IMG/VR virus record: IMGVR_UViG_3300029319_000526
Coordinates: 1-23,513 of that record
Strand: one strand, 5' to 3'
Source of the DNA: a virus
Length of the DNA stretch: 23,513 bases
Shown: piece after piece, positions 1,263 through 11,035 of the stretch
Numbering within the stretch: the first letter of the stretch is position 1
Layout of the letters: each line of letters opens with the position of its first letter
Made by a program: the position numbers and the translations under genes
Notes under the pieces: model-generated
Database searches by the model: none
What the model was told of the DNA's origin: nothing
The model's input: the letters and a program-made list of their open reading frames with translations, nothing else

Positions 1263-1982
1263 CTAAAGATCCACAAAAATGGCCCAGCCGCTACGAGGGC
1301 CATCCACCTGCCAACGCTGGTGGAACTCAGCTTGCCGTACTCGGACGCGATAGCCACTTAATGCGTGGTTATGCCCACCGTGCGCCATGTCAGGAACGCC
1401 CATCGGGTCGCTCATGAGCCACTCACTGTCGTTGCTGTATCGACCGCTGTAACCGTGAATCACGCTCCAGTGACCACAGGTTTGACTGCTGCACATTGGA
1501 GGCTCGCCCCGCAGCAGATCACCAGCGTGCAACCACCCCACCAACACCGGGCGGCCCTGGTCAATCTCGTCTTCAATGTCAGACGCGTCAGCATCCTGCA
1601 CGTAACGCACTCTCAGCCCCAGGCTTGTCAAAGTTTTGACTTGAGCCATGACAGAAGTCGTGTCGCCATGCTCTGCTCTGATCCGGTTGTACTCCTGTTG
1701 GCTTTCGACTTTTCTGTAGAAACGGGCAACCATCGCGGCAGCGCTGGTGAAGCACATTCGTGCCCCGTCCCGTAGATCGCGTTGTCGGTAGTACCGAGGC
1801 AAGTGGAGTTCTTGATCAATACCGCTCGCTCGCCATGCATCAAACCAAGCCGCGTCCTCATCCAAAATGCCTTCTGGCAAGGAACGTTCAAGCTCTGAAA
1901 TTGCAGCCAGCTGGTGGGGCGTACCACGAAAAAACTGAAAGAACGGCAGGAGCGCAAGCGAAGCCATGACCCATGACCTCAT
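1263..1982 (-). CDS. C39-like cysteine peptidase with N-terminal hydrophobic segment (endolysin candidate)
   Basis: A 239-residue protein. Residues 1-20 are hydrophobic (MASLALLPFFQFF) and may be a signal-anchor. The papain-like C39 fold is suggested by Cys77 in ARMCFTSAAAMVARFY, His171 in CGHWSVIHGY and Asp192 in MSDPMG, in the order and spacing expected for a Cys-His-Asp triad. Between them lies GRPVLVGWLHAG, typical of the strand before the His motif. Such domains occur in bacteriocin-processing peptidases and in phage proteins near lysis genes. Here it sits between a short amphipathic protein and a small helical protein, opposite a holin-like gene, so cleavage of peptidoglycan cross-links is the leading hypothesis; processing of a phage protein is the alternative. 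The ATG overlaps the upstream stop (ATGA). Confidence 0.7.
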   Translation of the reverse strand: MRSWVMASLALLPFFQFFRGTPHQLAAISELERSLPEGILDEDAAWFDAWRASGIDQELHLPRYYRQRDLRDGARMCFTSAAAMVARFYRKVESQQEYNRIRAEHGDTTSVMAQVKTLTSLGLRVRYVQDADASDIEDEIDQGRPVLVGWLHAGDLLRGEPPMCSSQTCGHWSVIHGYSGRYSNDSEWLMSDPMGVPDMAHGGHNHALSGYRVRVRQAEFHQRWQVDGPRSGWAIFVDL

Positions 1983-2152
1983 TTGTCGATGCGAGTTTCA
2001 GGCAGAAGCAGGTCCTTCAAATGCTTGACCGCCAGATCGTCGAGGTCGTTGTCAGTTCTAGTGACAATCTTCTCGAGCATCGCCACGATCAGTTCTTTGA
2101 ACGCCCGTGATCGCCACATGGTCATGACCAGCGGCTTGAGAACTAGAAGCAT
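1979..2152 (-). CDS. small hypothetical protein of the lysis region
   Basis: The ATG at 2152 is preceded by AGGTGA five bases upstream; the GTG at 2161 lies inside that Shine-Dalgarno sequence, so the shorter 57-residue form was chosen. The product starts with a hydrophobic stretch (MLLVLKPLVMTMW), then a helix (FKELIVAMLEKIV) and an acidic TDNDLDDLAVKHLKDLL motif. Short phage proteins with a T-N-x-LDD signature are familiar next to holin or lysis genes, but the function is not established. It is translationally coupled to the C39 peptidase and diverges from the holin-like gene, whose start lies a few dozen bases away. Confidence 0.5.
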   Translation of the reverse strand: MLLVLKPLVMTMWRSRAFKELIVAMLEKIVTRTDNDLDDLAVKHLKDLLLPETRIDK

Positions 2153-2239
2153 GTGATTCACCTAGTTACGCTGTAACGGTAGCTCTGTTGTCCTATGGCA
2201 TCCAACCCCGAGGATCAGCACGAAAAGGATGGGATCTGT

Positions 2240-2461
2240 ATGGCAGATGTCGTCAAGGCGTTAGTCCTGACGTGGAGCGCTGCATTGCTCACCGCTTCGT
2301 ATTTGGGCATTTTCCCTCAAATGAAAATGGACAATACGTTCGTTGCTTCTTTGCTTACTGGTGCGATGGCATCCTTTGGCATCGAGCGTAAAACCAACGG
2401 GGGGAGCAACAAGAAGCCGACTATCGTCGATAACAAAGACACCAAAGCTGGCATCAAATGA
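2240..2461 (+). CDS. holin-like small membrane protein
   Basis: Two hydrophobic segments are separated by a short polar turn: VKALVLTWSAALLTASYLGIF (residues ~5-25 from this start) and FVASLLTGAMASFGIE (~35-50). A Lys/Asn-rich hydrophilic tail follows. Size, two spans and charged C-terminus fit small phage holins, which permeabilise the inner membrane at lysis. The ATG at 2240 has a purine-rich stretch (AAGGATGGGA) upstream; an in-frame ATG at 2195 adds 15 polar residues but has no visible Shine-Dalgarno, so the shorter form is preferred, without certainty. The gene diverges from the C39 peptidase group and its stop overlaps the next start (ATGA), so it is coupled to the secreted-protein chain. 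Holin function is an inference. Confidence 0.5.
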   Translation: MADVVKALVLTWSAALLTASYLGIFPQMKMDNTFVASLLTGAMASFGIERKTNGGSNKKPTIVDNKDTKAGIK

Positions 2462-2952
2462 ACCGGGCACTTTTGGTATTGGGCATCACATTGACTGCGG
2501 CATCGCCCGCACAGGCTGATCTTGAGCACAAAATCATGTCGTCGATTCAGCTCCAAGTTGGCGGCGCCATAACAACGGCGGATCGGATCGGATCCTCGTT
2601 CAGTATTTCAGGAACAAACATTGACACCACCGACGGGACAACGGTGAACACGGTTTCGGCTGGAACCATCACCAGCGGCATCTATTCTCCAGGCACTATC
2701 GCAGCCACGCAGGACACGCCTGGCGAGGCTTTTAGTTTCAGTCAGTCTTATACGCAGGCCGACGCCGTACCTACTTCAGCCGTAACTACTGGCGACGCTG
2801 CAAATTTCGGCAGCCTTTCTTCAACGGCCGCCGGCACTCTCGGTACTTTGGCGGGCACAATTACATCTGATGGCAGCATGACTGTCACAGGAGGGGGTGC
2901 CAACACGTTGGCCGTAGGACAGCTCGTAACTGAAATCACAATCTTCGACTGA
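2458..2952 (+). CDS. secreted Thr/Ser/Gly-rich hypothetical protein (first of three)
   Basis: A 164-residue protein with a clear signal peptide: Asn-Arg start, hydrophobic core LLVLGITLTAA, and an ASPAQA-DL cleavage site near residue 21. The mature part is rich in Thr, Ser, Gly and Ala and almost free of Lys/Arg and Cys, with alternating patterns typical of surface beta structure. Export to the periplasm or cell surface, or presence in the virion, is possible. Similar short secreted proteins recur in marine cyanophages as far as I recall, with no known function. It overlaps its neighbours on both sides (ATGA before, TGATG after), forming a tight unit of exported proteins behind a membrane protein. 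Confidence 0.6.
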   Translation: MNRALLVLGITLTAASPAQADLEHKIMSSIQLQVGGAITTADRIGSSFSISGTNIDTTDGTTVNTVSAGTITSGIYSPGTIAATQDTPGEAFSFSQSYTQADAVPTSAVTTGDAANFGSLSSTAAGTLGTLAGTITSDGSMTVTGGGANTLAVGQLVTEITIFD

Positions 2953-3344
2953 TGCGTTGGCTTTTAGCGCTGATGTTGTTTGCCTCAAGAGCAAATGCTG
3001 CACCTGTTATTCCAAATTTCAAACAGGGCACGATGACTAGCCATACAGAAACAACCAGCAAAGTAACAGAAACAATCGTCAGCGAAAACTATTCAACTGG
3101 CTTTGAATACAGCGCCAGTGGCGTGAACGTTGCCCCAGACAAATCAATCAACCCCGTTTCAAATACAACAATCAACGGATGGACCTCCTTAGGAGAACGA
3201 CCCAACTGGTCAATCGTCAGGCCGGGCGAAACGTTTCAGTTCGTCGAAAGCCTGAAAGGCCCCGGTTTGTCAAACGTCACGACAATCCAGCGAACAACCG
3301 ACATCACCAGCGTTACCGATACAGTCTCCTCCTTTTCGGAATAA
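2952..3344 (+). CDS. secreted hypothetical protein (second of three)
   Basis: A 130-residue protein. The N-terminus MRWLLALMLFASRANA is a short signal peptide with an ANA-AP cleavage site near residue 16. The mature part is rich in Thr and Ser with no Cys (HTETTSKVTETIVSENYSTG, later TTIQRTTDITSVTDTVSSF), suggesting a beta-rich extracytoplasmic domain. No family is recognised. The start codon overlaps the preceding stop (TGATG). The end overlaps the region that encodes the signal peptide of the third secreted protein in another frame, so the three are probably made together. Confidence 0.6.
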   Translation: MRWLLALMLFASRANAAPVIPNFKQGTMTSHTETTSKVTETIVSENYSTGFEYSASGVNVAPDKSINPVSNTTINGWTSLGERPNWSIVRPGETFQFVESLKGPGLSNVTTIQRTTDITSVTDTVSSFSE

Positions 3345-3976
3345 TCGCCGCTGCCCCAGCCAACGCACAGGATATTGGTGGCATTTCGGCGACTGCATCT
3401 CCAACAGCGACAAGCAGCGGATCAGTCTCTAACCAGGCCGTTCAAATCCTTCAAGGTTCTGCCATCACGAACACCTACGGGGGAAACATCCAGTGCCAAG
3501 GACCAACTCTGACTGTCACTCCATATTTGAACAGAGCTGCGTCATGGGGCTTGCCGTATGAATACAGCTACCCAGACCCTGTTTACGATCTAAGTGATTT
3601 GAATGAAGACGGGGTTTTGGACAACCCTGGAGATGTTTTGTTCTACAAAGACACCCGCACAGGGCAAAAAAATAACCATAACTGGAATCTCGGTCTGTCA
3701 ATTCAGGCAACCATCCCGCTAGACCAAGGTCTGCAAAATCGCTGCAAACAAGCTGTTGACACTCAGCTGGCTCTACAACAACAACTCCTCGCCAACAAAC
3801 GCCTTGACTTTGAAATCAGTCGTTTGAAGCACTGCGGCGAGTTGATGATGAAAGGAATACGATTCGCGAAAGGCAGCCCATACGAGAAAGTCTGTCGAGA
3901 CGTTCGGGTGCATCATCCTGAGCCTCATAAGCACGCTATCCCCGTAATGACCTCTGATAAATCCGGCGCTCCCTGA
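3179..3976 (+). CDS. secreted cysteine-containing hypothetical protein (third of three); start uncertain
   Basis: The only ATG/GTG/TTG in frame ahead of the signal sequence is the ATG at 3179, which lacks a Shine-Dalgarno and would place 166 bases inside the previous gene. The convincing part begins near 3320: YSLLLFGIIAAAPANAQD is a signal peptide with an ANA-QD cleavage site. Initiation at a non-canonical codon is possible; an ATA at 3341 overlaps the previous stop as ATAA, but lies within the hydrophobic core. The mature part starts with a Ser/Thr/Gly-rich segment (SGSVSNQAVQILQG), has a DLNEDGVLD loop like a calcium-binding EF/dockerin loop, and ends in a helical region. Four cysteines (IQC, NRC, KHC, KVC) could form two disulfides. 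I recall related proteins in marine cyanophages without assigned function. The 3' end overlaps the convergent proline-rich gene by 41 bases. Confidence 0.6.
   Translation: MDLLRRTTQLVNRQAGRNVSVRRKPERPRFVKRHDNPANNRHHQRYRYSLLLFGIIAAAPANAQDIGGISATASPTATSSGSVSNQAVQILQGSAITNTYGGNIQCQGPTLTVTPYLNRAASWGLPYEYSYPDPVYDLSDLNEDGVLDNPGDVLFYKDTRTGQKNNHNWNLGLSIQATIPLDQGLQNRCKQAVDTQLALQQQLLANKRLDFEISRLKHCGELMMKGIRFAKGSPYEKVCRDVRVHHPEPHKHAIPVMTSDKSGAP
3596..3622 (+). other. putative calcium-binding loop in secreted protein
   Basis: These bases encode DLNEDGVLD, matching the DxNxDGxxD pattern of EF-hand, dockerin and thrombospondin type 3 loops. It lies in the mature part of the third secreted protein, where free calcium would be available. 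Only one loop is visible, so structural metal binding is a suggestion. Confidence 0.4.
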
Positions 3977-4460
3977 CACTCTCAGCTTTAACTTTTTTGC
4001 CCAATGCTTGCTGCAGTTTCTTCATTAGTTTTTTCACCGTCGGTTTAATTAGCTTCAGCAGCACTGGAGTTGCCAGGGCTGCGGAAACAGCAATAACAGA
4101 TGACGCTGCTACGTTTGTCGCTTCTGGAAGCGTTGGGATTGCCTCTCTAATCTGTTGAGGGAGGCTTTTCGTTTCCTCTGATGATTTCGGCTCTGCTGTT
4201 GATGCTGCTGCTGCTGATTGTTCTTTTGTGGGCAGTTTGATCGGAGGTGGCTTTGCTGCCGGCGGTTCAGCTGGACGAGGTTGAGCAGCTTTTACCGGTG
4301 GCGGCTCAACCTCAGGCTCCATGTCCATCGGGTTGAAATGAGGCAGATCTATAACAGGAACGCCAATCTCTAGCGTGACCGGCGGAGCTTGCGGGATCAA
4401 AACCTGAGGCAGATTTATTACAGGGTTAATCTCAGGCACGACAACTTCTCGGATCTCCAT
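3936..4460 (-). CDS. proline-rich single-span membrane protein
   Basis: A 174-residue protein in three parts. Residues 1-45 have a repeating hydrophobic/proline pattern (VVVPEINPVINLPQVLIPQ). Residues 46-100 are Pro/Ala/Glu-rich (PEVEPPPV, PAEPPAAKPPP) and probably extended. Residues 115-137 are hydrophobic (ATNVAASSVIAVSAALATPV) and can span the membrane, followed by a very basic tail (KKLMKKLQQALGKKVK). By the positive-inside rule the tail would be cytoplasmic and the proline-rich arm periplasmic, as in TonB-like or spanin-like spacers. The family is not assigned. Its ATG overlaps the ATG of the divergent plus-strand gene (CATG), and its end overlaps the third secreted gene. Confidence 0.55.
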   Translation of the reverse strand: MEIREVVVPEINPVINLPQVLIPQAPPVTLEIGVPVIDLPHFNPMDMEPEVEPPPVKAAQPRPAEPPAAKPPPIKLPTKEQSAAAASTAEPKSSEETKSLPQQIREAIPTLPEATNVAASSVIAVSAALATPVLLKLIKPTVKKLMKKLQQALGKKVKAESVRERRIYQRSLRG

Positions 4461-4704
4461 GGCATCAGAGCGGTTTACAGCGCGACATCTTTGGATCGAG
4501 GCAACCAGGCACAGAGAAGGACCACCGCTCGTCTATGTCTGCAAATCAGGCAACACGTCGATGTTATTCACCAAACCAGAAACCCTTTTGAAATATGTCC
4601 GTTGGCCCAAATCAACTCCGACAGGCAAAGCTCTGCGTGAGTGGCTTGACTGCTGGGACGCGCCAGAGATAGAACCGCAGGCCGAAACTAAAATGGTGAC
4701 GTGA
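4459..4704 (+). CDS. hypothetical 81-residue protein
   Basis: Not recognised. The sequence reads as a small globular cytoplasmic protein, with a strand-like LVYVCKSGNTSMLF, then PETLLKYVRWPKSTPTGKAL and a Trp-containing helix ALREWLDCWDAPE, and a polar tail. There is no signal peptide or membrane segment. The start overlaps the start of the divergent proline-rich gene, and the 3' end overlaps the end of the convergent membrane-protein gene by 17 bases. Composition is consistent with real coding, and no larger frame explains this stretch. Confidence 0.5.
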   Translation: MASERFTARHLWIEATRHREGPPLVYVCKSGNTSMLFTKPETLLKYVRWPKSTPTGKALREWLDCWDAPEIEPQAETKMVT

Positions 4705-4927
4705 TTGCCGGACCAGTTTCAGTCGGCAGCGCTGGGATTTCAGGCATCAGCTCATCAACCTGCCCCGGAATCATGTCTGTCACTTTGCCTGTGATGTCAT
4801 CGGTCATGCTGTTTGCGTAATCTTCAATCATTCCAGGGACCCGCATAAATGCAGCAACTGAGAGCCCAACCAGCGCCCCAGACATCACAAATGCCGCCAC
4901 AGCCAAAACGTTGAACAGCTTTTGCAT
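4688..4927 (-). CDS. small single-span membrane protein, cyanophage type
   Basis: The frame extends upstream to 4984, but that would run through a strong terminator hairpin; the ATG at 4927 begins a natural MQKLFNVLAVAAFVMSGA, so a 79-residue product was chosen. One N-terminal transmembrane segment (about residues 5-28) is followed by a helical linker (MIEDYANSMTDDITGKVTDM) and a Pro-rich end finishing ETGPAITSPF. From memory, small proteins with this layout (short N-terminus, one span, linker, terminal TG-A-PF motif) are common in T4-like cyanophages, with no established function. The only Shine-Dalgarno-like purines, AAGGGGA, lie in the 3' arm of the terminator stem, so expression may depend on whether that hairpin forms. 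Confidence 0.6.
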   Translation of the reverse strand: MQKLFNVLAVAAFVMSGALVGLSVAAFMRVPGMIEDYANSMTDDITGKVTDMIPGQVDELMPEIPALPTETGPAITSPF

Positions 4928-4931
4928 AGCC

Positions 4932-4964
4932 AAAAAAAATCCCCTTCTGTGCCGGCAGAAGAGG
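4932..4964 (-). terminator. Rho-independent terminator, leftward
   Basis: Read on the minus strand: a nine-pair stem CCTCTTCTG / CAGAAGGGG (one G-U pair), a six-base loop CCGGCA, then A and eight T. This is a classic intrinsic terminator shape. It lies between the secreted beta-rich protein and the small membrane protein, so it is the likely end of the long leftward late transcript. The plus strand has no T-tract on the matching side, so it acts in one direction. Confidence 0.85.
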
Positions 4965-4997
4965 ATAACCCTGTGTGTCTTCAATCAGCAGAGTAGC

Positions 4998-5339
4998 TCA
5001 GAAACTGAACTTTGCGCCAGTTTTGAACCCGAGGCCGAACTCGTCGCCAGTGCCAAACGAAACCTCTGCGTAAAGGGGACCACCGCTGATTCCAGCCTTA
5101 CCTGTGAACTCCAGTTCGTTTTCTCCAGAATCTGGAAGCACTGCAGCTGGACCGATTTGCACGTAGGCGCCGTTATCAAATCCGTAGCCGACATGCGTCT
5201 CAAGGATTGCAGAGCCCACCCCAGAATCCAAACCAACCCCAACGTTTAGCTCAGGATTGACGTACCAGTCTGCGCGGGCAGAGAGGGGTGCCAAGGCAAG
5301 TGCGCCAACGGCTGCACCAAAAACAAGACGTTTGATCAT
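4998..5339 (-). CDS. secreted beta-rich protein, outer-membrane-like
   Basis: About 113 residues. The signal peptide MIKRLVFGAAVGALALAPLSARAD has an ARA-D cleavage site. The mature part (~90 residues) alternates Gly with hydrophobic and aromatic residues (YVNPELNVGVGLDSG, THVGYGFDNGAYVQIG, GLGFKTGAKF) and ends in Phe, as in the strands of small outer-membrane barrels. It is too short for a full eight-stranded barrel of usual size. A TTG at 5351 overlaps the preceding stop as TTGA and has AGGG upstream, so a 117-residue form is equally possible. It is directly followed by the intrinsic terminator, which makes it the last gene of the late operon. Confidence 0.6.
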   Translation of the reverse strand: MIKRLVFGAAVGALALAPLSARADWYVNPELNVGVGLDSGVGSAILETHVGYGFDNGAYVQIGPAAVLPDSGENELEFTGKAGISGGPLYAEVSFGTGDEFGLGFKTGAKFSF

Positions 5340-5347
5340 TGGAAGAG

Positions 5348-5473
5348 TCAACGTTTTCCCTGCCCACGGTACTTCTTACGACCGTGAGACGGTTTGGAAT
5401 GCTGTCCATTTCCCTGTCTGGTCCGTTTCGGTCTGCCAACAACAAATGTTTGACCGTTGAGCGACTTCGCCAT
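5348..5473 (-). CDS. 41-residue highly basic protein, cyanophage type
   Basis: Begins MAKSLNGQTFVVGRPKRTRQ and ends KKYRGQGKR; 12 of 41 residues are Lys or Arg and two are His. The ATG overlaps the preceding stop (TGATG), which supports translation despite the small size. From memory, short proteins with an MAK-LNG-x-F start, a KxTRQG middle and a YRGQGK end occur in marine cyanophages, again with unknown function. Its charge suggests binding of nucleic acid or of an acidic surface. It lies between a 63-residue protein and the secreted beta-rich protein. Confidence 0.6.
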   Translation of the reverse strand: MAKSLNGQTFVVGRPKRTRQGNGQHSKPSHGRKKYRGQGKR

Positions 5474-5664
5474 CAGATGCCGTCAGTTGACTGCAAATTC
5501 TGATATTTAAGAGCTAAACCAGTAAATAAACCATGTTGAGGGTGACTGATTTGGTCACGACCATCAAGAAAAAACAACTCCTCAAGCCAAAGCGTTCTCG
5601 CTGCCATGGCTTGCACGTCTTGCGCGCCAGGCTTGTTGGGAATCATCGGATCAGGCCGTTCCAT
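5473..5664 (-). CDS. 63-residue hypothetical protein, cyanophage type
   Basis: The ATG at 5664 overlaps the preceding stop (TGATG); TTG and GTG codons just upstream are less likely. The sequence has MERPDPMIPNKPGAQDVQAM, then a helix AARTLWLEELFFLDGRD and the motif HPQHGLFTGL. I recall similar short proteins in marine cyanophages, where no function is assigned. It has no signal or membrane segment. It is coupled on both sides, between the DUF7936-like and the 41-residue basic proteins, near the fibre genes. Confidence 0.6.
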   Translation of the reverse strand: MERPDPMIPNKPGAQDVQAMAARTLWLEELFFLDGRDQISHPQHGLFTGLALKYQNLQSTDGI

Positions 5665-5987
5665 CACCAAGGAGTCCCCGTGCCTTTGATCGGAGTGCGC
5701 TGTTCATCAATTTGTGCTTGAAGCGCAGCTTGAATCTCAGCAACCTTTTCCGCACCACCAAGTTTGTCTTGCGCCCAGCCGATGCAAGTGTTAGCCGTCA
5801 AATCTCCATAAGCAATGATGTCATCGCCTTCAGCAGGTGCATCAAGGCCGATGCTGCCATAGGCTCCAGCAGAGTAAGTGCCGTCGCTTGCGTTCACAGA
5901 GTAGTGAACAACGCTCACAATCCCGTCTGCAAGGGTTCTTTCAAGAGTGTTGACGGCCCAGGTGAACGTGGTGGTTGGGGTAGACAT
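5664..5987 (-). CDS. DUF7936-like cyanophage protein
   Basis: A 107-residue protein. The N-terminal beta hairpin TFTWAVNTLERTLADGIVSV, then VHYSVNASDGTYSAGAYGSI, then ANTCIGWAQDKLG and a C-terminal helix AEIQAALQAQIDEQRTP ending in GTPW, match my memory of a small family found in many marine cyanophages (annotated DUF7936). The function is unknown; its place next to the fibre genes suggests a virion or assembly role. It starts 35 bases after the large fibre gene and overlaps the next gene (TGATG). The Shine-Dalgarno is weak. Confidence 0.7.
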   Translation of the reverse strand: MSTPTTTFTWAVNTLERTLADGIVSVVHYSVNASDGTYSAGAYGSIGLDAPAEGDDIIAYGDLTANTCIGWAQDKLGGAEKVAEIQAALQAQIDEQRTPIKGTGTPW

Positions 5988-6022
5988 CGGAAGTGTCGTG
6001 ATGGAGCAAGTTTAAATGCTGA

Positions 6023-8845
6023 TTAGCAAGCCATCAGCACGCAAGGCACGCAATAGCTGCCGTCAGCATAAGTAGTTGAAACCGTCGTGCTGGTTACTTT
6101 GGCAATCGTCTTGGAACGCACGATGTCATCATCTTGAGGTTTGGCAGTGCCATCACCAGCGGACATCAGAAGATCACCGCGTGCAACTGTGGTGCCCTGA
6201 GCAATACGGATAACAAAGTCACCCGTCATCGCGCAGTAGAAATCGTTGGTGTAGGTGTCATCGTCATCGTCCCAAGCTTGGAAAACACCTGCAACGTTTC
6301 GATCACCTTCTACATCGCTCACCTTCATACGGTTAAGTTGTTCATTGTCTTCCACACTTGCCTCAACGGCAGGAACTTTTACATCACCAACATTAACTCC
6401 TTCAGGTAATTCATCTTCTTCAGTATAAAGAACTGCTGCCTGCGCTCCATATTGCCACTCACACATCTCATCGAGGTTGCTCAGTACCGAGCCACGAAGA
6501 ATTTCAGTGCGTTCAGCACCGTTTGCTAATTGCGACCATCGAGTGAGGTGAGCACCATTTAGAGAAACGGTACTTCCAGACACACTGATGTCACCTTCTT
6601 CTGTGTTGTCTTGGAGGAATTTAACAAGCTTGCCGTCACTAGACAATCTGTTAACATCTAGAACTATATTGTTATTTCTTGTTAAACTGGTAAGCGCGTC
6701 GTTGACACGAAGAGTGCCGTCAATTTGAGCATTGCCTGCGACAAATAAGTCGGAATAATCGCTAAAACGAGTTCCAACTGTTGCTCTAGCTGCTGATGTT
6801 GTGGCAACACCGCCCGAAGGTTTTACATAAGAAGTAGCTGCACTTTCTGTTTGAATTTGCACTCCCCATAGACTCCAGTTACCATCTATACCTCCGAAGT
6901 CAATAAATCTACCACTTGTAGGTACTAACGAAGTGAAGACAAAACGTTGCCAAGAAGTTGTAACTGTAATGCTTCCAGCTTGATCGTCACCTAAATCTAC
7001 ATTAATTGATTGACTGGAACCACTTTCACTCTTAGCGTAAAATGAAAGCGTGTAGGCCGTTGAATTAAGATTTACGCTACTTGAAACTTGACTAAATCTG
7101 CTTTGTGCTGGTGTCGATCCAGCGGTGAATTTACTTGCAGTTTTTGTTCCATCTGGAGCGATAGAAGCATTTGCTGCCCAAGTACCAGTTCCAGCAGTAT
7201 CGTTTGTTGTGGGAGTGGCGCTTGTAAAGTAATTTGTAACTGGCGGTTCTGTTACGACAGACGGATCAGTTTGTGATCCGAGCGTAATGCGAGCAAGGCT
7301 ATCAATTCTCATCCGCTCAGTCGGACTTGCCGCACCATCCGCTGTGGTCATGAACGCTAAATGCGTTGGAAGATCATTGCTTCCAGGGGTGCCATCAATC
7401 TTGGCGCGGATGATTGCGCCTCTGCTGTTTACATCAGTTCCATCGTTACCTGCAAAAACAATATCACCAAGAATGTCACTTGAGCCAACAGAACCGCTGC
7501 CTCTAGATTTGCCAAGAATTAACTGAGGTCCATCGACCGCTGATTGATTTTGGTGTAGCGACAATGATGCCTTTGCTGAAGTGTTTCCTTCAATCTGCAA
7601 CTGCGACTCTTGAAAGATATCGTTACTGGTAGACGTACCAATCAACAGCCTGCCTGCGCCATCGAGGCGCATCTTTTGACCGTCCGCTCGACCAAAAATA
7701 TGCTGGTCAGCGTTATTGATAATATCGATAAACGAAGATGATCCACGATCGTAGTGATTTAAAGTGTTCTCTGTATCGCCGCTGCCTGGGAAAAACTCGA
7801 ATCCTTCGTCACCAGCATCTGAAACAACGAGTGCTCTTTGAGGCGACGTTGTGCCAATTCCACAGCGGCCTGAGCTGTCGATCGTAAATCTGTCAGCAGC
7901 GTTTGTCCTAATGGTGAGACTGTCGTCTACATGGCTGTACTTAATTTGACCGACATTATCGTCAGCAGCATCGCCAAAGAAAATATCGCCGCGTCCATTA
8001 TTAGGGCTGAGAATCCCTAATCCACCAGAGGTTGTAGTGCTAGTCAGCGTGAGTTGTTTGGTGGAATCTAATGCCGACGTACCACCAATGACCATCTGGC
8101 CTGAGCTATTTATGCGCGCAGCTTCGCTTGCAGCGGTGGCAAAACGCAAAGCCCTTGTGTTGTGGCTGTAATGGATATATCCGTCATATTCATCAGTGCC
8201 AGACGTTGCATCTGAGAAGTAAATAAAACCAGAGCTAGTTGTTCCGGAACGGAGTGTAATGCCACAGTTACCGGTGTCTGCAATAGTTAAATTGTCGGCA
8301 TTAGCATGGCCCTCAGTCGTCGTACCAACCAACAGCCTGCCCGAGCTGTCGATGCGCAGCCGCTCGGCATTTCCTGTGCCCAGAGCCATATAGTTAGAAC
8401 TGTGGACATAAATCAAATACCCTTCTGCTACAGCACTGCCACTCGTGCCATCGGCAAAAAACAATGATCCTTGACTGCCCGTTCCAGTAGCAATGGTTAT
8501 CCCATTATCTCCTGTGCTGCCTACTACAAGATTGTCTGCTGAAGCGTTATAAGAAGAAGGAGAAGAGTTGTTGATCCCGACATTTCCCGAGCTATCAATA
8601 AACAACCTGCTTGTTCCACCAGTAACCAGCGCAAGTTGGTCTGTGCCAGGGCGGTAAATGCCGGTATTTTTGTCGTTATCAAACGAAAAAGCAGGCGTAG
8701 CAGCAGCACCATCACCTGCATTCTCAAGCAAATCTGCAATCGTTACTTTCTTCGTCGTATCAGCACCGACATCAACAATCGGCAATACGTCAGAACTAGC
8801 GGGATCGGTCAGTGCCGTCAGTTCGGTGATTTTGACGTTTGCCAC
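6023..8845 (-). CDS. large modular tail fibre protein
   Basis: A 940-residue protein. Residues 1-50 (KITELTALTDPASSDVLPIVD) are a likely attachment segment also seen in the neighbouring 388-residue fibre. Residues 51-91 hold FSFDNDKNTGIY and LALVTGGTSRLFIDSSG. A repeated R-x-R/F-ID/NSSG-x-x-x-IG motif appears near 80, 162, 243, 319, 392 and 511, spaced about 73-119, marking beta-rich shaft modules. Residues ~535-680 read like a jelly-roll, carbohydrate-binding-type domain (YTLSFYAKSESGSSQSINVD, WQRFVFTS, WSLWGVQIQ). Residues ~695-940 form a distinct end with an acidic DDDDD run, GDFVIRIAQGTTVARGDLLM and the Cys-rich tip YCVPCVLMAC. That end resembles a trimerising/chaperone tip, possibly Peptidase_G2-like, but this is uncertain. 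The role is host recognition. Confidence 0.8.
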   Translation of the reverse strand: MANVKITELTALTDPASSDVLPIVDVGADTTKKVTIADLLENAGDGAAATPAFSFDNDKNTGIYRPGTDQLALVTGGTSRLFIDSSGNVGINNSSPSSYNASADNLVVGSTGDNGITIATGTGSQGSLFFADGTSGSAVAEGYLIYVHSSNYMALGTGNAERLRIDSSGRLLVGTTTEGHANADNLTIADTGNCGITLRSGTTSSGFIYFSDATSGTDEYDGYIHYSHNTRALRFATAASEAARINSSGQMVIGGTSALDSTKQLTLTSTTTSGGLGILSPNNGRGDIFFGDAADDNVGQIKYSHVDDSLTIRTNAADRFTIDSSGRCGIGTTSPQRALVVSDAGDEGFEFFPGSGDTENTLNHYDRGSSSFIDIINNADQHIFGRADGQKMRLDGAGRLLIGTSTSNDIFQESQLQIEGNTSAKASLSLHQNQSAVDGPQLILGKSRGSGSVGSSDILGDIVFAGNDGTDVNSRGAIIRAKIDGTPGSNDLPTHLAFMTTADGAASPTERMRIDSLARITLGSQTDPSVVTEPPVTNYFTSATPTTNDTAGTGTWAANASIAPDGTKTASKFTAGSTPAQSRFSQVSSSVNLNSTAYTLSFYAKSESGSSQSINVDLGDDQAGSITVTTSWQRFVFTSLVPTSGRFIDFGGIDGNWSLWGVQIQTESAATSYVKPSGGVATTSAARATVGTRFSDYSDLFVAGNAQIDGTLRVNDALTSLTRNNNIVLDVNRLSSDGKLVKFLQDNTEEGDISVSGSTVSLNGAHLTRWSQLANGAERTEILRGSVLSNLDEMCEWQYGAQAAVLYTEEDELPEGVNVGDVKVPAVEASVEDNEQLNRMKVSDVEGDRNVAGVFQAWDDDDDTYTNDFYCAMTGDFVIRIAQGTTVARGDLLMSAGDGTAKPQDDDIVRSKTIAKVTSTTVSTTYADGSYCVPCVLMAC
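7277..8608 (-). repeat. degenerate shaft repeats in the large fibre gene
   Basis: Six copies of a motif of the form R(L/M/F)xI(D/N)SSGxxxIG are encoded here, with intervals of about 73-119 residues. Some copies are still alike in DNA: the plus-strand stretches near 7634 and 8321 both read CGTACCAA(T/C)CAACAGCCTGCC. The modules are probably individual segments of a trimeric shaft that change number by recombination. Confidence 0.7.
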
Positions 8846-8891: not shown

Positions 8892-10058
8892 TCAAGTGCT
8901 CATCAACCCATGACGTTGCAATGCGTCAATCAACGCCTCAACCTTTGCTTCAAGCGTCACGCAATACTGCAGCAACTCAGCATTTGTCGGTGATGCAGCG
9001 TTAGCAATGCTGTTTGCATCAGCAGCCGTAGGCAAAGTCCCAGTCGTTGCAGTTGTGTTGATGTCCGTGATTGCCGTTGCTTGCGTTGCAGGAGTCGCGC
9101 CAAAGAACCCAATCGCGTTGGCACTAACCTCAACCTGCGTCGTCAGCGTTCCAGCAGTCTGAACCTGTAGCCGAAGCTTGCCGTCTTCTGTCGTGTCACT
9201 TGCGTCAGCAATGACAGCTTGGATCGCTGCATAATCAATCGGCCGTTGAGCTTGCGTGCCATCATCGTTATTTCCTCTGAAATACAGAGTGCTCAGAATG
9301 TCGTCGTCTTGACCAACAGCATTGTTCCGATGGCGGTACATCCTAATGTCCGCACCAGACGCAGCATCATCGTTGGCACATTCAAGCCGAACCGCTTCAG
9401 TGCTTGCATCAGTGATGTGCAGCGGTGATTCAGGCGCAATCTCATTGATGCCGACCTTGCTTTCCTGCAGGCGTATAACAGTTGATGCTGAACCTGCTTT
9501 AGTTACTACAAAATCAAGTCGGCCATCCTCGCTGCCGCTGCTTGCGTCAGCAATGCTGCTGGTGATTTCTGCGTAAGATTGTGGGTTACCAGCATCATCT
9601 TCACCCCGAAACTCAAGCGTTCCGAGGACATCATCGTCAGCAGGTGATGCAGAGTTGCGATAGAAAACAACGTTAGGTCCTTCAAGTGCTCCAGCTTCGC
9701 TGTTTTCAATAATTACATCATCACCAGTCGTAGATTTAAACGTGTGCAGTTGTGCAGTTGCCGTTCCACTGCCAACTTGAAAACCTGTAGTTGTGAACTT
9801 TGAGTTCAGCGTATCCCCTGTGCTAATCGCAATCTCGTCTTCAGCACTGCGGAAGAATCCAGTGGCGTCACTGTCAGCAGTAAAACCAAGCGATGGAGCA
9901 GTAACAGTGCCAGCCGGAATTTCGGTCAGCAGCGTGTCATACCTGATTTTTTTGTTCTTGTCGGCACTGTTGGATTCTGAAGTGTCAAGCACCAGAAACT
10001 CATCGTCTGATGCAGGCGCTGTCAGCTCAGTAAGGGCAGATAATTTACGATCAGTCAT
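8892..10058 (-). CDS. tail fibre protein with internal duplication
   Basis: A 388-residue protein. The N-terminus KLSALTELTAPASDDEFLVL parallels the large fibre's start, followed by a related linker (PSLGFTADSDATGFFRS). Residues 131-196 and 240-306 are two copies of one module: YRNxA..DDDxLxTLxFRGxxDDG, then IADAS..(S/T)EDG+L and xAG. The end has GFFGATPATQAT, a polar linker and a helix LLQYCVTLEAKVEALIDALQ likely to form a trimeric coiled coil. This is typical of marine phage fibres. The start overlaps the stop of the S74 fibre gene (TGATG). It lies 46 bases ahead of the large fibre gene, with nothing evident in that gap. Confidence 0.75.
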   Translation of the reverse strand: MTDRKLSALTELTAPASDDEFLVLDTSESNSADKNKKIRYDTLLTEIPAGTVTAPSLGFTADSDATGFFRSAEDEIAISTGDTLNSKFTTTGFQVGSGTATAQLHTFKSTTGDDVIIENSEAGALEGPNVVFYRNSASPADDDVLGTLEFRGEDDAGNPQSYAEITSSIADASSGSEDGRLDFVVTKAGSASTVIRLQESKVGINEIAPESPLHITDASTEAVRLECANDDAASGADIRMYRHRNNAVGQDDDILSTLYFRGNNDDGTQAQRPIDYAAIQAVIADASDTTEDGKLRLQVQTAGTLTTQVEVSANAIGFFGATPATQATAITDINTTATTGTLPTAADANSIANAASPTNAELLQYCVTLEAKVEALIDALQRHGLMST

Positions 10059-11035
10059 CAGTTGCCAGCCTCCAGTGCAGCGACTTTGGTTTCAAGAGTT
10101 TCGATGCGATCCATCGCTTCTTGCAAGGCTTTGACGGCTTTCATATACAAAACAGAGTAAGACACTGTTTTTGTCGTTGTACCGAGGCTGTTGCCGTCAG
10201 CATCTTCATCGTTTGATTCTTTGACAAGCCCTGGCGATACAGCTTCAAGCTCTTGGGCAATTACACCAATTTGCGTGTGAGTTGCGTAGCCAGTGCTGGA
10301 CTTGAAGTTGTAGTTTCTAACCCGAACATCTTTGATGTCATTCCACTGCGAACCAGCGTCAACAATGTTTTCTTTTAACTTGCTGTCTGAAATCGCTCCG
10401 TAGCTGTTGTTGGTGTTTTGCAAGTCGCCATCGCCTTTAACCCTTGCTTCACCGCTGCCGCCAAGCACCTGTAGCACGCTGTTGCCATCTGCAGTGTTTC
10501 TACCAAGCTTATGGACCGAATCATCGCTGATTGTGTAACCGCTTGTTCCTACTGCAGGCGAGCCATTGGTGATGTTACCGCTTGCGATGTCTAAATTACC
10601 AGTCGTTTTGATGTTGCCAGCAACGTGCAAAGATTCGGTGGGTGTGTTTTCGCCGATGCCTACCTTTCCAGCACTATCAATAACCAAACGATTTGTGCCG
10701 CCAGTGACGAGGGCTAGCTTGTTGGTATCACTTAACTGAAGCCCAGTATCCTTGTCAGTATCAAAGGCAAGGCCAGGAGTTGCTGAGGTTCCAGGCTGAA
10801 TATATGTTGGACCGTTGATTTCCCTTATGTCAATCCAGTTGTTATTTGCTACATTCCGTTGCTTTAGCAGTGGCCTTGGGCTGTTGTCAGTGTCTATCCA
10901 ATACTGATACGCAAATGTCGTTCCAGGTTCGCTTGCGCTGCTGTTCTGGCTGACAATCGCCGCTAGAGCATTGTTGAGGTCTGCCCTGAAGCTGCTACCG
11001 CTTTGATTGGCAAGATTATAGTCGTGTGTTGCCAT
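10058..11035 (-). CDS. tail fibre with C-terminal S74 intramolecular chaperone
   Basis: A 325-residue protein. The N-terminus DYNLANQSGSSFRADLNNAL followed by YQYWIDTDNSPRPLLKQRN is a recurrent fibre start in marine phages, probably the tail-attachment part. Residues 87-127 hold FDTDKDTG and LALVTGGTNRLVIDSAG, shared with the large fibre. Residues 216-325 are a Peptidase_S74 domain: SDSKLKENI gives the Ser216/Lys221 dyad with the S+5 spacing of endosialidase-type chaperones, then IGVIAQELEAV, and a C-terminal coiled coil (ALQEAMDRIETLETKVAALE). In known members this domain trimerises the fibre and then cleaves itself off before the Ser. The gene starts two bases after the J C-terminal gene. 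Confidence 0.88.
   Translation of the reverse strand: MATHDYNLANQSGSSFRADLNNALAAIVSQNSSASEPGTTFAYQYWIDTDNSPRPLLKQRNVANNNWIDIREINGPTYIQPGTSATPGLAFDTDKDTGLQLSDTNKLALVTGGTNRLVIDSAGKVGIGENTPTESLHVAGNIKTTGNLDIASGNITNGSPAVGTSGYTISDDSVHKLGRNTADGNSVLQVLGGSGEARVKGDGDLQNTNNSYGAISDSKLKENIVDAGSQWNDIKDVRVRNYNFKSSTGYATHTQIGVIAQELEAVSPGLVKESNDEDADGNSLGTTTKTVSYSVLYMKAVKALQEAMDRIETLETKVAALEAGN

Follow-up and report, generated by a model that had tools for sequence, protein, structure and literature searches.

The stretch of DNA analysed here, referred to below as the window, is a viral contig of 23.5 kb (23,513 nucleotides) in which four genes follow one another on the plus strand: an ORF of the DUF6450 family and three genes, here named A, B and C. 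The minus strand carries a tail module of siphovirus type, and the tape-measure protein of the window is similar to the tape measures of other phages. The chain and its surroundings comprise the following features:

1263-1982, minus strand: endolysin-like C39-family peptidase, divergent to the module (Pfam Peptidase_C39_2, E 5e-8; phrog_10051 'endolysin', E 3e-49)
1979-2161, minus strand: small conserved protein adjoining the endolysin (phrog_2738)
2195-2461, plus strand: candidate class II holin of the DUF6450 family, with two hydrophobic segments (PF20048, E 1e-14; phrog_21865/721)
2458-2952, plus strand: gene A, exported Ser/Thr-rich protein (phrog_564, E 5e-62)
2952-3344, plus strand: gene B, exported Ser/Thr-rich beta protein (DUF6322, PF19847, E 1.8e-28; phrog_650)
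3179-3976, plus strand: gene C, exported protein with four invariant cysteines, a strand-rich part and then a long helix (phrog_848, E 4e-104)
3179-3344, plus strand: dual-coded B/C overlap of 166 nt, with C in the -1 frame (stop-codon avoidance)
3936-4460, minus strand: Pro-rich protein, phrog_570-like, convergent to the module (phrog_570, E 3e-18, matched through its C-terminal part)
4459-4704, plus strand: small ORF, phrog_37139, beginning where the divergent phrog_570-like gene starts
4688-4984, minus strand: phrog_568 membrane protein
4998-5351, minus strand: adjacent cyanophage outer-membrane-like beta-barrel protein (PF24653, E 2e-15)
6023-8845, 8892-10058 and 10058-11035, minus strand: successive fibre-like proteins

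The first-pass annotation had described a holin-like gene joined to three signal-peptide genes by ATGA and TGATG overlaps and then a deeper one, and both the coordinates and the AxA-type sites confirm it: DUF6450 and A meet in an ATGA overlap, A and B in a TGATG overlap, and C, read in the -1 frame relative to B, opens inside it and shares its last 166 nt. The start of DUF6450 may be placed at 2195 or at an internal ATG at 2240, both equally possible. By HMM score the window genes are members of PHROG families 564, 650, 848/1755, 721/21865 and 570/9426, all of unknown function, and the PHROG 848 HMM covers C over its full length (residues 1-260). As for the fibre-like genes, the C-terminal stretch of the 10058-11035 product resembles, judged by eye only, an intramolecular chaperone of the Peptidase S74 type.

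Using simple rules and not a trained predictor, a hydrophobic segment with an AxA-like cleavage site was recognized in 94 of 94 homologues of A, 101 of 102 of B and 97 of 97 of C, and a lipobox motif in none of these 293 proteins, so that none of the three has an evident outer-membrane anchor. In B, the hydrophobic segment is N-terminal, precedes the AxA site and looks cleaved; in the phrog_570 partner it is C-terminal instead. The phrog_570/9426 proteins share a common plan (12/12 homologues, from three phage types), formed by an acidic, Pro-rich N-terminal part (12-30% Pro), a hydrophobic segment and a basic C-terminal tail, which under the positive-inside rule suggests an N-out/C-in topology. 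Two hydrophobic segments were also seen, by hydropathy only, in six DUF6450 homologues of 58-103 aa. The phrog_568 protein, which lies in the same neighbourhood in T4-like phages and in MED4-184, is here strongly hydrophobic and accompanies the envelope module (window, 4688-4984, minus strand; locus L002, 8487-8750; MED4-184, locus L171, 5275-5511; locus L088, 5617-5874). Its name, 'plasmid stability', has been used as ground for plasmid hypotheses (PMC9602691). We consider that this label may be misleading.

The three products had also been presented as different Ser/Thr-rich exported proteins. Export holds for all of them and richness in Ser/Thr for two, the share of these residues in the mature protein reaching 31.5% in A and 30.7% in B, whereas C is ordinary in this respect (13.8%). 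Nor are the three all different, since A and B are, by profile comparison, distant homologues (hhalign, 98% probability, E 2.7e-13); the same kind of comparison gave no relationship of C to either of them. In MED4-184 protein A matches the B family directly. Against the DUF6322 HMM gene B of the window scores 99.4 bits, above the curated cut-off of 30.6, and gene A 15.2 bits, under it; protein A bears the name OMP1 in several phage records. The AlphaFold2 model of B (pLDDT 85, pTM 0.65) displays long strands and found no significant PDB match with Foldseek, while the model of C is poor (pLDDT 50), with strands at 98-180 and a helix at 183-224. A TolC-like or pore-forming-toxin-like fold was considered for B or C and discarded, the Foldseek and Pfam matches being at noise level. 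No meaningful sequence relatives of the module proteins were found in the PDB, and no plasmid homologues of B.

By tblastn, C matched 418 phage records, B 414 and A 404, all of them Synechococcus or Prochlorococcus phages or marine uncultured viruses, and the scan of a genome collection for cellular homologues of C returned a single contig, from a MAG labelled as a proteobacterium, which is probably misbinned phage DNA. We examined 169 loci: the window, this MAG contig, GenBank phages and IMG/VR contigs, 80 of these close and 80 T4-like. The full trio is present and in order in 154 of the loci, T4-like and siphovirus-type, and in the remaining 15 a nearby contig edge removes the missing gene or genes. 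The siphovirus-type order is nearly invariant, i.e., endolysin, phrog_2738, DUF6450, A, B, C, phrog_570, phrog_568 and barrel protein. Taking C as the reference, the endolysin is found in 51/51 loci, phrog_2738 in 60/61, DUF6450 in 66/66, A in 68/68 and B in 73/73 and, on the other side, phrog_570 in 69/69, phrog_568 in 61/63 and the PF24653 barrel protein in 52/53; the small phrog_37139 ORF is present in only 45 of 65. The lysis gene that had been noticed beside the module in the window is therefore, in loci of this type, its constant neighbour. In T4-like loci (n = 86) DUF6450 (65), phrog_570 (69) and phrog_568 (57) also occur near C, mostly 1-4 kb off, their homologues in Syn9 being gp161, gp164 and gp162, respectively; by homology to the endolysin of the window, the module adjoins no recognised endolysin in any of the 86.

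C also matches T7-like cyanopodoviruses, in which the set consists of a Pro-rich protein, DUF6450, B and C, A being absent in the examples read. Among 173 podovirus-type loci, the Pro-rich protein is present in 142/144, DUF6450 directly before B-C in 147/147 and B in 161/161, and beyond C come the small (147/149) and large (85/89) terminase subunits. In the annotated examples the module follows the tail-fibre genes and thus lies between fibre and terminase. T7 itself has the order fibre, two-TM holin, small terminase, Rz with embedded Rz1, large terminase, and by gene order the position of the module in T7-like cyanopodoviruses is that of the T7 holin/spanin region.

Hence, co-occurrence of the three genes in a fixed order, which the first-pass annotation had put forward for comparison across loci, was found in 154 loci, but the strict A-B-C trio is not universal, since A is absent from T7-like phages, and the three genes are all missing from the genomes of S-CREM2 and P-SS2. 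Genes occurring independently of each other, which was to speak against a joint role, were seen only in part, for A. B and C stand together in every locus with enough flank, with A added in T4-like and siphovirus-type phages, and both the making of these proteins together and a joint function are in this sense well supported. A literature search gave no paper describing the module and no mention of DUF6322 or DUF6450; the module is conserved in cyanophages and apparently undescribed.

The relationship between B and C deserves separate treatment. The signal sequence of C, in whose homologues four cysteines are invariant, is not N-terminal, but comes after some 48 residues, basic in character, whose coding sequence lies entirely within B. 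Signal sequences seldom have such an extension in front of them, and its amino-acid conservation is moderate only, both of which would be in keeping with C not being made from the conserved ATG, but by ribosomes that shift frame in B or start at a non-standard codon by the signal sequence, the overlap being a by-product. We regard this as highly improbable. Across 102 non-redundant homologues of the window type and T4-like types, two C-frame stops were observed within the 166-nt overlap, both in one sequence, against 311 +/- 15 expected under synonymous shuffling of B, a null in which phylogeny is not modelled. C-frame stops are common upstream of the C start, with 474 where 550 would be expected, and no avoidance is seen in the third frame. 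Furthermore, ATG lies at -166 in 145 of 156 homologous loci, being shifted in the remainder, and among the former the B residue whose codon gives its first base varies. Shifting frame close to the B stop could do without an open frame, and production of C in this way is ruled out by the stop-codon distribution, and beside the signal sequence there is no conserved candidate for a start codon. Four-fold sites of B are less divergent within the overlap, where a value of 0.63 gives way to 0.43 (first half) and 0.57 (second half), and the 48-residue extension has a mean net charge of +7.3, compared with +3.9 under shuffling, lying above expectation in 97% of sequences.

In podoviruses C starts elsewhere, at -193, -112, -67, about -350 or -56, and in both of the large groups that were tested the avoidance of stops gives out close to the start codons of the group itself, stops returning directly upstream, while the hydrophobic core of the signal is always encoded at the end of B or just beyond. 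Given that a boundary of stop avoidance coinciding with the start codon in separate lineages would otherwise be hard to explain, the B/C overlap is, on this pattern of substitutions and stops, genuine dual coding: a clear natural case in which the start codon moved from lineage to lineage and the signal sequence kept its place where gene B ends. Its extent is variable. The C frame of NATL2A-133, whose first ATG stands at about -360, runs open through nearly the whole of B, which is thus almost embedded in C; P-SSP6 has a C frame open to a similar extent, and there B is not annotated. In P-SCSP2, P-SCSP1u and MED4-184 C overlaps B by a short stretch in the +1 frame, which suggests that the overlap arose more than once; the C proteins of P-SCSP2 and P-SCSP1u have an ordinary short signal peptide. 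The annotation of C in GenBank is inconsistent, with the conserved ATG used in Syn9, truncated versions in S-WAM1, S-CAM9 and S-H68, and no C in S-RSM4. Altogether, with 2 stops where 311 would be expected and an order kept wherever there is enough flank, the chain is more than chance; the feature is real and partly confirmed as first described, and its interpretation is partly supported.

Some indication of timing comes from the T4-like loci, where the T4-type late-promoter motif [AC]TAAATA is found upstream of A in 54 of 61, mostly at 27-36 nt, against 3.4 expected. The cyanomyovirus late promoter has been reported as NATAAATA, close to this motif (PMC2984593). The late motif was not found in siphovirus-type loci, in which A directly follows DUF6450.

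We infer that the chain might be the core of a late envelope and egress (lysis) module peculiar to the phages of marine picocyanobacteria, a reading to which we give about an even chance. DUF6450 would act as a putative holin, whereas A, B and C would be exported by Sec to the periplasm late in infection; there B and C would work together with the Pro-rich inner-membrane protein of phrog_570/9426, in some phages with the help of A, forming a complex that breaches the outer membrane and does the job of spanins without being spanins. What favours an egress role is the late-promoter motif, the export signals, the constant holin-like companion, the endolysin of siphovirus-type loci and the position in the lysis region of T7, and a lysis function appears plausible. 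For none of the members of the module did we find data on function, localisation or lysis, and structural comparison of B or C gave no significant match to a membrane-disrupting protein.

The main rival to the egress role is that A, B and C remodel or shield the outer surface of the infected cell, in superinfection exclusion, receptor masking or as an uptake or export channel. Their signal peptides would serve such a purpose equally, an outer-membrane-like barrel (PF24653) adjoins them in 52 of 53 siphovirus-type loci, and the name OMP1 given to A points in the same direction. Exclusion genes, however, usually act early, whereas the motif before A in 54 of 61 T4-like loci is a late one, and neither the invariant pairing with a holin-like gene nor the lysis-type position in T7-like phages agrees well with remodelling, which we thus consider unlikely, though the more serious of the competing explanations. 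Far less probable is a place in the virion, for instance as fibre- or capsid-decorating proteins, which the first-pass annotation had admitted among the possible sites. Fibre or structural genes do lie nearby in several genomes, and the late-promoter motif would suit virion proteins as well, but tailed-phage virions assemble in the cytoplasm, from which Sec signal sequences would take A, B and C away. Two phages were considered in this regard. S-CREM2 gp174 and gp176 belong to the virion proteome, occupy a similar-looking place and have sizes like those of A and C; PHROG places them in phrog_22836 and phrog_8198, families unrelated to those of A, B and C, and the genome is one of the two that lack A, B and C. 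The S-CREM2 locus (positions 3440-8019) presents a C39 peptidase and two lysozymes, and then hypothetical genes including these two. The other, the siphovirus P-SS2, for which virion proteomics exists, could not serve as a test of a virion role, being without the three genes. From S-CREM2 and P-SS2 it also follows that other egress routes must exist.

The egress role can be related to a previous survey, in which marine cyanophages account for 20 of 91 spanin-less phages, Syn9 and P-SSP7 being on the list, and where it was proposed that spanins could be replaced by two proteins, one in the outer membrane and one of N-out/C-in topology whose TM is C-terminal (PMC6139136). Syn9 and P-SSP7 both carry genes B and C, and the module offers candidates for both parts. 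A wider and more tentative proposal, possible but in our view somewhat less than probable, is that marine cyanophages of the three tail types share a non-spanin system of outer-membrane disruption, passed between unrelated phage families and composed of the exported beta protein B with or without A, the dual-coded, cysteine-containing C and the Pro-rich inner-membrane protein of reversed topology. If true, this would explain why cyanophage genomes look spanin-less. The module may supply the step that has been missing in accounts of how these viruses get through the outer membrane. Marine Synechococcus and Prochlorococcus rank with the chief primary producers of the ocean, and their lysis by phages represents a large carbon flux; the module constitutes a compact and testable candidate in hundreds of sequenced cyanophages, several of them with genetic systems.

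How far does the module resemble what is already known? By eye, the pattern of strands followed by a long helix in C recalls the protomer of TolC family outer-membrane efflux proteins, a likeness for which Pfam gave OEP at E 0.24 in 1 of 97 homologues and Foldseek, on a low-confidence model, matches at noise level. DUF6450, a putative holin, shares with class II holins such as T7 gp17.5 its small size, two hydrophobic segments and, in T7-like phages, the same gene neighbourhood. The closest parallel is with two-component spanins (lambda Rz/Rz1, T7 gp18.5/18.7). These combine one N-terminal anchor and one lipoprotein, whereas the signal sequences of B and C are of the cleavable type, none of A, B and C is a lipobox lipoprotein, and a third, B-related protein, A, is added in some phages; by definition, then, with no protein carrying a lipobox, the module is not a spanin system. 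The B family was searched for in T7 and not found, a negative of little weight. A location in the lysis region is seen in T7-like and siphovirus-type loci and not in T4-like ones. Overlap is not required of spanins, as separated pairs exist. Nevertheless, like the spanin genes, B and C form an overlapping pair of exported envelope proteins in different frames, by 166 nt in the window and by near-full embedding in NATL2A-133, standing beside a holin-like gene and, in T7-like phages, in the lysis region.
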